DNA of 64,000 nucleotides, from positions 1,240,001 to 1,304,000 of the forward strand of contig NZ_SOAU01000001.1 in NCBI RefSeq assembly GCF_004364865.1, read 5' to 3'. The position numbers and the translations under genes are program-made. This document shows positions 42,662-53,154 of this stretch, piece after piece (within the stretch, counting starts at the first letter, position 1; every line of letters begins with the position of its first letter). The notes below the pieces were generated by a model. The model saw only the letters and a program-made list of their open reading frames with translations, had not been told where the DNA came from and did not search any database. This stretch comes from Ilumatobacter fluminis. GTDB taxonomy: Bacteria > Actinomycetota > Acidimicrobiia > Acidimicrobiales > Ilumatobacteraceae.

Positions 42662-43654
42662 TCAGGCGAGGTTCTCGCCGTCGAAGATGTCGCTGACGCT
42701 GGTGTCGTCGAAGACCGCCGAGAGGGCCTCGGCGATGATCTCGGCGACCGACAGCACCTCGATCTGCGGGATCTGTTTCTCGGGCGGCAGCGGCAGGGTG
42801 TTCGTGAGGACGACGCGCGCCAGCGGCGAGTTCTTCAGCCGGTCGACCGCCGGGCCCGACAGCACGCCGTGCGTGGCCATCGCCCACACCTCGGTGGCGC
42901 CACGTTCGAGCAGGATCTCGGCGGCCGACACGATCGTGCCGCCGGTGTCGATCATGTCGTCGGTGAGGATGCAGAGGCGCCCGTCGACGTCGCCGATGAC
43001 CTCCTTGGCCTCGACCACGTTCGCCTGGCCCTTCGGCCGGCGCTTGTAGATGAAGGCGATGTCGGCGTCGCAGTCGTGCAGGTGCTGAGCCATTCGCTCG
43101 GCGACCTTGATGCGGCCGGAGTCGGGCGACACGATGACCGGCGAGTCGGGCGCCTGCTGGCGGATGTAGTTCTCGAGCACCGGTGCCGCCGTCAGATGAT
43201 CGACGGGGCCGTCGAAGAAACCCTGGATCTGGCCCGAGTGCAGGTCGATCGAGATCATGCGCTTGGCGCCGGCCGCCTTGAACATGTCGGCGACGAGACG
43301 GGCGGTGATCGGCTCGCGTCCCTCTGCTTTGCGGTCCTGGCGTGCGTACCCGTAGAACGGGGTCACGGCCGTGATGCGCTTGGCCGACGCTCGCGACGCT
43401 GCGTCGATCATGGTCAGTTGTTCCATGATCGAGTCGTTCACCGACCGGCCGTCGACGCCGTAGTGGCTCTGCATGACGAACACGTCGGCGCCGCGCACGC
43501 TCTGCGTGAACCGCGGACGGATCTCGCCGTTCGAGAACTCGACGATGTTCGGATCACCGAGGCCCTGTCCCAGATGGGTCGCCACCTCCTCGGCCAAGGC
43601 GGGGTGGGTGCGCCCGGTGTAGAGGGCGAGTTTCTTGGTGGTGACCTTCTCCAT
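42662..43654 (-). CDS. prs: Ribose-phosphate pyrophosphokinase
   Basis: A 330-residue enzyme making PRPP from ribose-5-phosphate and ATP for nucleotide, His and Trp synthesis. Clear motifs are LALYTGRTHPALAEEVATHL, FSNGEIRPRF, the flexible loop/ATP region YGYARQDRKAEGREPITARL, the PRPP loop LTDDMIDTGGTIVSAAEILL and VVSPDSGRIKVAERMA. ATG 43654 (MEKVTTKKLALYTG) is the family start. It follows glmU by 52 bp, as in most actinobacteria. Confidence 0.97.
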   Translation of the reverse strand: MEKVTTKKLALYTGRTHPALAEEVATHLGQGLGDPNIVEFSNGEIRPRFTQSVRGADVFVMQSHYGVDGRSVNDSIMEQLTMIDAASRASAKRITAVTPFYGYARQDRKAEGREPITARLVADMFKAAGAKRMISIDLHSGQIQGFFDGPVDHLTAAPVLENYIRQQAPDSPVIVSPDSGRIKVAERMAQHLHDCDADIAFIYKRRPKGQANVVEAKEVIGDVDGRLCILTDDMIDTGGTIVSAAEILLERGATEVWAMATHGVLSGPAVDRLKNSPLARVVLTNTLPLPPEKQIPQIEVLSVAEIIAEALSAVFDDTSVSDIFDGENLA

Positions 43655-43706
43655 GGCGAGCCCCTCCCCGGGCAACGGTGGTGTGGTCGGCGGTCGTGGG
43701 CGATCG

Positions 43707-44795
43707 CTAGCGGGCGTCGGGAGCAGTGTAGAACGGCCCCGTCGTGGTGCCTGCAAGCAGGTTGGTGTCGGCGGTGATGTGGGCGAACGGTCCGACGTCT
43801 GAGGCTGGTCCGATGACGCCGCCGTCGGCGACGGTCTGACGGACGCGGCTGTTCGCCCCGACGGTGCAGTCGGTGAGCTGGGTGTGCGGGCCGATGTCGC
43901 AGCCGTCGCCGACCGTCGTCGTGCCGTGCAGCGTGGTGCCCGGGTAGATCGTGACGTCGCGCCCGAGTTGGACGGTGACGTCGATGAAGGTCTGTCGGGG
44001 GTCGAGCATGGTGACCCCGTTGAGCAGCCAGTGCCGGTTGGTGCGGTTGCGGAACTCGCGTTCGGCGAGAGCGAGCTGCCAGCGGTCGTTGACGCCCTGC
44101 GTCTCGGCGCCCGACGCCCGGAGAGCGCCGACGCGGTGGCCCATCGATGCGAGTTGGCCGATCACGTCGGTGAGGTACAGCTCGCCTTGTGCGTTGTCGG
44201 CGGTGAGGTTGCGGAGCGCCGGGCCGAGGAGGTCGCGTCGGAACGCATAGATGCTGGTGTTGATCTCGCGCACGTCGAGCTCCTCCGGCGCCGCATCACG
44301 CTGTTCGACGATGCGCAGCACCCGTTCGTCCTTGCCACGGATGACTCGGCCGTAGCCGGTCGGGTCGTCGAGGACGCTCGTGAGGAGGGTGGCGGCGTTC
44401 GAGTTGGCGACGTGGCTGGCGACGAGTTCGTCGAGGGTGTCGGCCGACAGCAGGGGAGTGTCGCCGGGCACGACGATGACGGTGGCGTCGTCGTCGTAGT
44501 CGTCGCCCGAGAGTGCGGCCATGCCGATCGCGGTCGCGTCGCCGGTGCCGTTCTGTTCGACCTGTTCGGCGAAGGCCACGTTGGCCCAGTCGGGCGACTC
44601 GGCGCTGATCTTGTCGGTCACCTGGTCGGCGGCGTGGCCGACCACGACGACGGTGTGAGCCGGCTTGAGGAGCTCGAGCGCATGGATGACGTGGAGCACC
44701 ATCGGGCGTCCACAGATGCGGTGGAGGGGCTTGGGCCGCTCGGAGCGCATGCGGGTGCCGGCACCGGCGGCGAGCACGATCGCTGAAACTGTCAT
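43707..44795 (-). CDS. glmU: GlmU-like N-acetylglucosamine-1-phosphate uridyltransferase with truncated acetyltransferase domain
   Basis: A 362-residue protein. The uridyltransferase domain is complete: VLAAGAGTRMRSERPKPLHR, EQVEQNGTGDATAIGMAAL, VVPGDTPLLSADTL, EINTSIYAFRRDLL and ELYLTDVIGQLASMGHRVGA. The left-handed beta-helix starts (DVTVQLGRDVTIYPGTTLHG, ASDVGPFAHITA) but stops within about 20 residues, where bifunctional GlmU needs a further roughly 110-120 residues with the acetyltransferase active site. I find no continuation in other frames downstream. It should still make UDP-GlcNAc from GlcNAc-1-P. Its ATG lies two bases after the tRNA-Gln discriminator base. Confidence 0.88.
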   Translation of the reverse strand: MTVSAIVLAAGAGTRMRSERPKPLHRICGRPMVLHVIHALELLKPAHTVVVVGHAADQVTDKISAESPDWANVAFAEQVEQNGTGDATAIGMAALSGDDYDDDATVIVVPGDTPLLSADTLDELVASHVANSNAATLLTSVLDDPTGYGRVIRGKDERVLRIVEQRDAAPEELDVREINTSIYAFRRDLLGPALRNLTADNAQGELYLTDVIGQLASMGHRVGALRASGAETQGVNDRWQLALAEREFRNRTNRHWLLNGVTMLDPRQTFIDVTVQLGRDVTIYPGTTLHGTTTVGDGCDIGPHTQLTDCTVGANSRVRQTVADGGVIGPASDVGPFAHITADTNLLAGTTTGPFYTAPDAR

Positions 44796-44797
44796 CG

Positions 44798-44868
44798 TTC
44801 CGGGGAGAGGACTCGAACCCCTATAAACGGCACCAAAAACCGCTGTCCTACCATTGAACGACCCCGGA
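44798..44868 (-). tRNA. tRNA-Gln (anticodon UUG)
   Basis: A 71-nt cloverleaf including the discriminator A. Acceptor TCCGGGG (44862-44868) pairs with CCCCGGA (44799-44805). D arm is GTTC-AATGGTA-GGAC, anticodon stem/loop GCGGT-TTTTGGT-GCCGT with anticodon TTG, four-base variable loop, T arm AGGGG-TTCGAGT-CCTCT. CCA is not encoded. The terminal anticodon-stem pairs are G-U wobbles. glmU starts two bases downstream. Confidence 0.93.
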
Positions 44869-46387: not shown

Positions 46388-46667
46388 GGTGGTGGTTCGC
46401 GAGGCGTGGTGAATCGTCTCACGGTGGTGGTTCGCGACCTGTGGTGAATCGTCTCACGGTGGTGGTTCGCGACCTGTGGTGAATCGTCTCACGGTGGTGG
46501 TTCGCGACCTGTGGTGAATCGTCTCACGGTGGTGGTTCGCGAGGCGTGGTGAATCGTCTCGCGGTGGTGGTTCGCGAGGCGTGGTGAATCGTCTCACGGT
46601 GGTGGTTCGCGACCTGTGGTGAATCGTCTCGCGGTGGTGGTTCGCGACCTGTGGTGAATCGTCTCGC
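46388..46667. repeat. Eight tandem copies of a 35-bp unit
   Basis: Exactly eight head-to-tail 35-bp units, each starting GGTGGTGGTTCGCGA and ending GGTGAATCGTCTC plus AC or GC. Two internal variants occur: GAGGCGT in copies 1, 5, 6 and GACCTGT in copies 2, 3, 4, 7, 8. Copies 5, 7 and 8 end GC. The non-random order suggests block duplication. It starts 8 bp after the S4 gene stop, between convergent genes. Confidence 0.95.
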
Positions 46668-46678
46668 CGGCTCGGGCT

Positions 46679-46940
46679 GGGTTCTCGGTGGCGGTAGTGC
46701 GGGTTTCCGGACGTGTGCCGCCGAGATGTCGGCGGGTTTGTGGATGTCTGGGTTCTCGGTGATGTGGGTGCGGGTTTCCGGACGTGTGCCGCCGAGATGT
46801 CGGCGGGTTTGTGGATGTCTGGGTTCTCGGTGATCTGGGTGCGGGTTTCCGGACGTGTGCCGCCGAGATGTCGGCGGGTTTGTGGATGTCTGGGTTCTCG
46901 GTGATCTGGGTGCGGGATCCCGGACGTGTGCCGCCGAGAA
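46679..46940. repeat. 3.7 tandem copies of a 71-bp hairpin-containing unit
   Basis: Units start at 46679, 46750, 46821 and 46892 (last partial), each GGGTTCTCGGTG... with TGCGGGTTTCCGGACGTGTG and GCCGCCGAGA. GGTTCTCGG and CCGAGAACC at the ends of the final copy can pair around CGGGATCCCG, giving a long hairpin. The array continues from the 35-bp array and ends 30 bp before the ksgA stop. A related array with the same 71-bp period lies at 53144-53335. Confidence 0.92.
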
Positions 46941-52545: not shown

Positions 52546-53154
52546 GTGGGGATTCGGGGTGCGCGTTCGGACGACATGGCGGCGATGTACGACATCTGTG
52601 TCCGGACGGCAGACGCCGGGGGAGACGCCCGCCCGCTGCACGGCGACCCGGATCTGCCCGGGCACGTGTGGGCCGGCGCCTATGTGACGCTCGAGCCCGA
52701 GCATGCGTTCGTCCTCGTCGATGACGGCGACGTTCCGATCGGCTACGTGATCGGCGCCCTCGACTCACGTTCGTTCGAGGATCGGTGCGAGCGAGCGTGG
52801 TGGCCCTCGCTCCGGGAGCGCTATCCGGTCGGGTCGGGCGAAACCGAGCGCGACCGACTCGAGATCGGGTTCATCCATGCGCCTCCGACGGCGAGCGACG
52901 AGGTCGTGGCCGATTATCCCTCGCACCTCCACATCGACCTGCTGCCCGCAGCCCAGGGCCGAGGTGCGGGTCGGCGCCTGATCGAGACGTTGGTTGCGTC
53001 GCTCAGCGCCGACGGTTCGCCCGGTGTCCACCTGGGAGTGGCCGTGCGGAACGAGAACGCTCGAGCTTTCTATGAACGGGTCGGCTTCACCGAGTTCGCT
53101 CGCACCGCCGACACCGTCACCTTTGTGATGCCACTCCCGCCCCGTTCTCGGTGA
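52546..53154 (+). CDS. GNAT-family N-acetyltransferase
   Basis: A 202-residue acetyltransferase from GTG 52546 (VGIRGARSDDMAAMYDICVR). The split GNAT core has VLVDDGDVPIGYVIGALDSR (beta4), SHLHIDLLPAAQGRGAGRRL with the acetyl-CoA motif Q/RxxGxG/A, and VAVRNENARAFYERVGFTEF, the typical CoA-contact helix. The insertion FEDRCERAWWPSLRERYPVG is seen in a group resembling O-GlcNAcase-associated GNATs. Its last four codons (residues PRSR and stop) lie in or against the first 71-bp repeat at 53144, so the repeat supplies the C-terminus. Confidence 0.85.
   Translation: MGIRGARSDDMAAMYDICVRTADAGGDARPLHGDPDLPGHVWAGAYVTLEPEHAFVLVDDGDVPIGYVIGALDSRSFEDRCERAWWPSLRERYPVGSGETERDRLEIGFIHAPPTASDEVVADYPSHLHIDLLPAAQGRGAGRRLIETLVASLSADGSPGVHLGVAVRNENARAFYERVGFTEFARTADTVTFVMPLPPRSR

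Follow-up and report, generated by a model that had tools for sequence, protein, structure and literature searches.

GlmU ends before its acetyltransferase segment throughout the Acidimicrobiales, with a stand-alone GNAT protein as candidate substitute

In the textbook account, bacteria make UDP-GlcNAc with bifunctional GlmU, whose acetyltransferase half is under study as an antibacterial target. The gene analysed here lies in a window of 64,000 nucleotides from Ilumatobacter fluminis (contig NZ_SOAU01000001.1, positions 1,240,001 to 1,304,000). Its product shares with bifunctional GlmU (TIGR01173; Escherichia coli, Mycobacterium tuberculosis) a homologous uridyltransferase domain and the first coils of the beta-helix, but the helix is cut at about position 344 of the family profile, the acetyltransferase segment is absent and the score falls under the family cut-off. 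The 331-residue chain of E. coli GlmU (PDB 1fwy, 1fxj), a truncated, active uridyltransferase, likewise consists of the uridyltransferase domain and the first helix coils and has a nearly identical end point; that chain is a laboratory construct, whereas an entire order carries the window form as its native gene. The archaeal GlmU type (TIGR03992) shares the layout of a nucleotidyltransferase followed by hexapeptide repeats, but the window protein is far nearer GlmU and matches TIGR03992 weakly (129.9 bits; cut-off, 292.1).

Eukaryotes have the acetyltransferase GNA1 (EC 2.3.1.4), which adopts the GNAT fold. In the Caenorhabditis elegans enzyme, Glu104 and Asp105 bind the 3- and 4-hydroxyls of the sugar, Tyr149 is the proposed catalytic residue, and Arg164 and Lys136 bind the phosphate (PMC3413214). 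Work on Apicomplexa reports that a lineage-specific GNAT independently came to fill the GNA1 role; a census of GNATs brought it to light, and yeast rescue together with an enzyme assay proved its function. Of the positions that it shares with GNA1s from other eukaryotes, only two are key functional residues in the human enzyme (PMC5838249). This is a precedent for the recruitment of a GNAT in one lineage, although its hosts are eukaryotic parasites. Our searches of the open-access literature, which omits most subscription journals, found no description of an order-wide GlmU truncation or of the GNAT role proposed below; among the titles and abstracts listed, none dealt with a GlmU truncated in Acidimicrobiia or in Chloroflexi.

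A glmU gene without an acetyltransferase half

The gene, its parts and its neighbours are as follows (window coordinates).

43707..44795, minus strand: truncated glmU, 362 residues, with a complete uridyltransferase and the acetyltransferase half absent (ORF translation, domain scans, alignment)
44109..44795, minus strand: NTP_transferase (uridyltransferase) domain, residues 1-229, with the motifs LAAGAGTRMRSERPK and GDTPLL (PF00483, M. tuberculosis GlmU structures)
43731..43985, minus strand: left-handed beta-helix remnant, residues 271-355, ending in VGPFAHITADTNLLAGTTTGPFY (PF00132, alignment)
44797..44868, minus strand: tRNA-Gln (TTG), directly upstream of glmU
42662..43654, minus strand: prs-like gene, presumably for ribose-phosphate pyrophosphokinase, 52 bases downstream of glmU

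A sequence-only reading of this DNA had proposed that the uridyltransferase half is complete and that the helix stops about 20 residues after GPFAHITA, and both statements hold. PF00483 matches residues 5-229 (E = 1e-19), and the uridyltransferase part matches solved M. tuberculosis GlmU structures at E = 2e-79. Translation of the open reading frame from 44795 to 43707 places the protein end 20 residues past GPFAHITA; residues 4-355 correspond to positions 2-344 of the 452 in TIGR01173, with a score of 349.1 bits (351 in the genome search) against a curated cut-off of 366.85. Pfam scans found a single stretch of hexapeptide signal (PF00132, residues 275-307) and a weak match to PF25084, under its cut-off.

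The claim that the acetyltransferase catalytic segment is missing was confirmed by alignment with the GlmUs of the order and the 30 best-scoring complete GlmUs of the phylum, 10 of which were listed. Everything from the 'VGNFVEVKK' region on is absent, and the helix remnant lacks the segment for acetyl-CoA and GlcN-1-P catalysis. The lost residues are presumably those numbered K351, H363, Y366, N377 and K392 in E. coli GlmU. Only 52 bases (43655-43706) lie between glmU and the prs-like gene, which leaves no room for the missing part of about 100 residues; as the sequence-only reading had it, no frame in this gap supplies them. At its other end, the glmU start is 1 base from the tRNA-Gln gene. 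The neighbourhood (ispE-like, tRNA-Gln, prs-like) matches that of relatives, the prs-like gene being beside glmU in most of those examined, and inspection of our own gene calls for 30 loci of the order, and for the listed part of larger stretches, showed no acetyltransferase gene beside glmU. The window GlmU is thus confirmed as a complete uridyltransferase with a beta-helix that ends before the acetyltransferase catalytic segment.

Truncation across the order and the phylum

The genome is a single contig of 4,775,416 bases, is 99.97% complete and has one glmU. A complete second copy elsewhere would have overturned the proposed loss; the TIGR01173 search returned four matches in all and no second glmU, the other three being weak, and none of the four covers the acetyltransferase segment. 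At E ≤ 1e-50, 145 of 198 Acidimicrobiales genomes have a clear glmU match. None of these 145 extends past profile position 362, although a few are interrupted at the end of a contig. Among glmU genes of the order, the 30 with the best scores all end in the same region, 28 of them with a TG(P/A)F tail. Truncation is the norm across the whole order and not a quirk of this genome, and it is therefore not attributable to an assembly error at 43707. The chance that an assembly or sequencing error there produced the short gene is negligible, given that 30 of 30 aligned relatives stop alike and that no clear match in the order is longer.

To place the order within its phylum, we counted, from listings, a sample of 158 genomes that comprises 11 members of the order and 147 others. 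GlmU reaches at least profile position 435 in 137 of the 147, and it is complete in all three sampled genomes from other orders of the class. For five of the 147 (G234, G283, G314, G318 and G338) no place is shown for glmU, and in G239 the gene exceeds the cut-off only when neighbouring pieces are joined. The other four belong to a family that we label f68 (G216, G243, G329 and G311; loci L121-L124), in which GlmU ends at 334-355; six other f68 genomes have a complete GlmU, among them G201 and G263. The f68 gene is a separate truncation near the same point, in another family of Actinomycetota.

Some lineages within the order depart further from a complete GlmU. In four of the five genomes of family f59 (G059, G100, G159 and G184), and in G134 of family f1, the GlmU match goes no further than position 238-243 of the 452 in the profile, which suggests that the helix remnant itself may be dispensable. 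Families f26, f33, f34, f35, f51 and f54 have no recognisable GlmU, their best matches being 1.8e-10 to 3.7e-33. In total, 53 of the 198 genomes, some of them incomplete, have no glmU match at E ≤ 1e-50.

Other ways to supply the missing step

The sequence-only reading had argued that UDP-GlcNAc synthesis would need a separate acetyltransferase, and the order-wide truncation together with the lack of a second glmU in this genome supports that view. Of the option it offered, a stand-alone hexapeptide enzyme, what was found is one protein that makes a weak rival; the GNAT protein described in the next section is better supported.

L057:3260-3898 (own genome about 2048259-2048897): WbbJ/XAT-like protein, 212 residues

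It seems improbable that a stand-alone left-handed beta-helix acetyltransferase of this kind is the substitute. The protein is the only hexapeptide acyltransferase-like PF00132 match in the genome besides glmU, a DapD-like protein and a gamma-carbonic-anhydrase-like protein, but its layout looks like that of an O-acetyltransferase, and the TIGR01173 search of the genome found nothing that covers the acetyltransferase segment. With L002-L004 left out of account, the remaining PF00132 matches are low-complexity or unrelated frames, those at L040, L043 and L044 among them.

The first enzyme of the pathway is unusual in size and was considered as a second candidate.

L055:7717-11076 (own genome 3737719-3741075), minus strand: giant GlmS, 1119 residues; best glmS match, under cut-off

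In this GlmS, about 180 inserted residues interrupt the glutaminase domain, and the protein has a C-terminal extension of about 310 residues. Acetyltransferase activity could in principle reside in the extension, which has no Pfam match, and the gene is about 2.5 kb from glmM. However, the giant form is patchy across the phylum, stands alongside a complete GlmU in six sampled genomes (G203, in two pieces, G213, G225, G233, G292 and G310) and is absent from two genomes with a truncated GlmU (G022 and G032). We rejected it as the substitute because its distribution does not track GlmU truncation, and regard this explanation as extremely improbable.

UDP-GlcNAc might also be made without any GlcN-phosphate acetyltransferase, through salvage of GlcNAc by a kinase or through acetylation after nucleotidylation. 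Both routes are possible in principle, but the retention of a GlmS-like gene and of a normal glmM (518.7 bits, above cut-off) points to de novo synthesis, and we consider such routes very improbable here.

A GNAT protein conserved across the order

A census of GNAT proteins, made with PF00583 alone, covered six genomes and 89 stretches. Five GNATs of the I. fluminis genome are reciprocal best matches with proteins in all three small genomes of the order (G074, G193 and G142). Three of the five are RimI-, RimJ- and MshD-like. Among the five, we picked the candidate for its conservation (49-56% identity to its partners in the small genomes) and its IEDVVV motif.

G000:C1:469155-469574, outside the window: candidate GNAT, about 140 residues (PF00583 census, reciprocal best matches)

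Another of the shared GNATs (G000:C1:1187136-1187408, minus strand, L200) is weakly conserved, at 27-37%, and has no assigned role. PF00583 matches all six proteins of the candidate's family that were scanned, and neither NCBIfam nor Pfam gives the candidate a specific family name.

A search profile built from four orthologs finds the candidate in 192 of the 198 genomes of the order, and in 151 of the 153 of high quality. Every best match has E ≤ 3e-32, and 15 of the 192 carriers have two matches. The protein is present in 142 of the 145 genomes with a clear truncated GlmU and in 50 of the 53 that have no such glmU match; it is kept in all genomes of the six families without a recognisable GlmU except G083. 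Six genomes of the order have no match (G030, G055, G062, G068, G083 and G155), and one of these, G155, is 99% complete and has a truncated GlmU. In the phylum sample, all 11 members of the order carry the GNAT (E < 1e-46). A match at E < 1e-30 occurs in one of the 147 other genomes (G296, 2.3e-58), which has a complete GlmU, and weak matches (2.9e-17 to 9.2e-13) occur in 11. The profile search of this sample found no match in the four f68 genomes with a truncated GlmU, so another solution exists there.

The neighbourhood of the gene is uninformative on its role. No amino-sugar genes are linked to it in the order-type and Chloroflexi loci examined. It adjoins a PAC2-like gene in all five inspected loci of the Acidimicrobiia type (L212, L252, L257, L260 and L295) and azlC-like genes in 4 of 6 Chloroflexi loci. 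Within the phylum, the truncation and the GNAT could both go back to one ancestral branch and mark it with no link between them.

Resemblance of the candidate to GNA1

For an ortholog labelled Ilumatobacter, AlphaFold gives a model (pLDDT 94.8, pTM 0.88) that matches the GNAT fold, and many GNATs are returned by both fold and profile searches. Fold comparison (VIA) with yeast, Arabidopsis and Trypanosoma brucei GNA1 gives Z = 16.4 and an rmsd of 1.8-2.1 over 130 residues; the T. brucei structure is 3I3G (PMC4964394). These GNA1s rank 44-50 in a list in which the best Z is 18.2. By sequence profile, the GNA1s of four eukaryotes are among 66 matches: T. brucei in third place (1.5e-10), C. elegans, Arabidopsis and human.

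Resemblance to eukaryotic GNA1 extends from the fold to the substrate site. In the aligned GNAT family, the equivalents of C. elegans Asp105, Val106 and Tyr149 are kept in 53 of 53 members and that of Glu104 in 52. All 53 members have QLS at the site of the QLT or similar motif of GNA1s, and all have a C-terminal Arg that the profile aligns to a Lys of Arabidopsis GNA1. We take this invariant Arg as the probable equivalent of Arg164, a placement made via the Arabidopsis chain alone, as the C. elegans chain that was compared ends before Arg164. The QL(S/T) and (I/V)ED motifs occur together in only four of the 89 census stretches, which are the four family members. Unlike eukaryotic GNA1, the candidate is bacterial and keeps neither Lys136, in place of which it has T, S or H, nor Cys141, and by profile it is not nearer GNA1 than RimI: the family scores 80.0 against another GNAT of the order, 73.6 against RimI, 66.5 against GNA1, 61.2 against MshD and 44.7 against PAT, with other GNATs likewise under GNA1. 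The profile alignment that has the Arabidopsis chain as its lead sequence gives 24% identity to GNA1. We therefore describe the apparent likeness to GNA1 as a resemblance of the substrate site and not as established family membership.

Recurrence in Chloroflexi and other carriers

The scan of named genomes gave 576 GNAT matches, and the best 80 were used. Carriers among these 80 include six Chloroflexi loci, two Rokubacteria, three bins labelled Acidobacteria and scattered actinomycetes, and GlmU was inspected in 28 carrier genomes. Among the best 80, five of the six Chloroflexi carriers have a truncated GlmU that ends at 329-335, and the sixth has no clear glmU. GlmU is complete in both Rokubacteria carriers and in 10 of the 12 actinomycete carriers of the same set; of the other two actinomycetes, G346 has GlmU in three frames that jointly cover the profile and G356 has fragments only. 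Five further carriers from the best 80 have a truncated GlmU in four cases and fragments in one (G370).

In the bins labelled Acidobacteria, the GlmU of L257 (QEUP01000015.1, 'Acidobacteria bacterium ATN2') ends at 344, and the glmU matches of B68T1B8 and B4D1T1 end at 240 and 225, the latter at a contig edge; these last two are suggestive only. The GNAT neighbourhood of L257 is as in Acidimicrobiia. ATN2 is therefore probably a misnamed Acidimicrobiia bin, and we did not count it as a separate lineage.

To establish a base rate, we counted, again from a listing, GlmU in 151 Chloroflexota genomes. The acetyltransferase segment is covered in 109 of these (106 in one piece and 3 in pieces at contig edges). 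A whole open frame that ends at 305-335 occurs in six, namely G363, itself a GNAT carrier, and five others. A further six genomes have weaker glmU matches of 240-250 positions, possibly paralogs, which were left out of the count of short GlmUs because both G441 and G505 carry such a match in addition to a complete GlmU. In G398 the contig runs out at position 289 of the gene's match, and the rest have no strong match. With the carrier G363 set aside, 5 of the 114 clear genes for GlmU are thus short, or 11 of 120 if the six doubtful ones are included, compared with 5 of 5 among readable Chloroflexi carriers, which are mutually related.

In a quick-search tree built on 46 rows of the uridyltransferase part, the truncated genes of the order form one clade (SH-aLRT 99) and those of Chloroflexi form a second (98), which branches from within the complete Chloroflexi genes (99). 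The two clades stand apart, which establishes that the order and Chloroflexi truncations were separate events. In a tree of the GNAT itself (86 rows, few columns), the Chloroflexi copies group together (98) and join most Acidimicrobiia copies (92), and most carriers with a full GlmU are placed apart from these, with modest support. Also outside the main group are the copies of family f22 (G074, G142 and G193) and a few that are labelled Acidimicrobiia or are unclear.

It is possible, if unlikely, that a different GNAT or an enzyme of another fold performs the acetylation and that the GNAT found across the order does some unrelated housekeeping task. The strongest objections to the role that we propose for the GNAT bear on this point: two marks of a single clade may coincide, some carriers among the best 80 matches keep a full GlmU, the truncated f68 genomes do without the GNAT and must have another solution, and neither profile nor fold favours GNA1, the protein being at least as near RimI and another GNAT of the order by profile. 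Its lack of a specific NCBIfam or Pfam name and the breadth of the census (one Pfam model and six genomes, with a further shared GNAT, G000:1187136, that has no assigned role) point the same way. Against this explanation stand the conservation of GNA1 substrate-site residues in the candidate and the recurrence, in the Chloroflexi carriers, of the association between this GNAT and a truncated GlmU.

A proposed route to UDP-GlcNAc

We consider it probable, on balance, from these sequence comparisons, that the GlmU of the order serves as a uridyltransferase only and that the acetylation of GlcN-phosphate has moved to the stand-alone GNAT (G000:C1:469155-469574). We infer that the GNAT supplies the lost acetyltransferase activity, which substrate it uses and in what order the steps run. 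GlmS would form GlcN-6-P; the GNAT would transfer the acetyl group of acetyl-CoA to the amine, most likely that of GlcN-6-P as in eukaryotic GNA1, with GlcN-1-P possible; GlmM, acting on the acetylated sugar, would move the phosphate to C1; and the truncated GlmU would combine GlcNAc-1-P with UTP to give UDP-GlcNAc. GlcN-6-P is preferred over GlcN-1-P because the residues that are kept are those that GNA1 uses for its 6-phosphate sugar.

A wider proposal, which we put forward tentatively and hold to be somewhat less than an even prospect, is that these bacteria run a eukaryote-like hexosamine route, in which a bacterial GNA1 acetylates GlcN-6-P, GlmM serves as phospho-acetylglucosamine mutase and GlmU has uridyltransferase activity alone. 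This route would be common to all Acidimicrobiales and to the separately truncated Chloroflexi lineage (labelled Anaerolineaceae). After the uncoupling of the two activities, several lineages of the order would have lost GlmU, so that a different uridyltransferase would act there.

An order that has no GlmU acetyltransferase half and has a plausible replacement from another superfamily would call for a revised pathway, for the order and for part of Chloroflexi. The short glmU genes of these lineages could be annotated as normal. These lineages also offer a case in which the replacement of an enzyme of an essential pathway can be tested directly.

Other observations in the window

Two neighbouring tandem arrays, both with 95% matches, sit between an S4-domain open reading frame and an rsmA-like gene. 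The window also encodes a further GNAT-family protein, which resembles the acetyltransferase-like domain of O-GlcNAcase.

46388-46665: tandem array, 35-base unit, 7.9 copies
46677-46939: tandem array, 71-base unit, 3.7 copies
52576-53154, plus strand: GNAT-family protein, 192 residues
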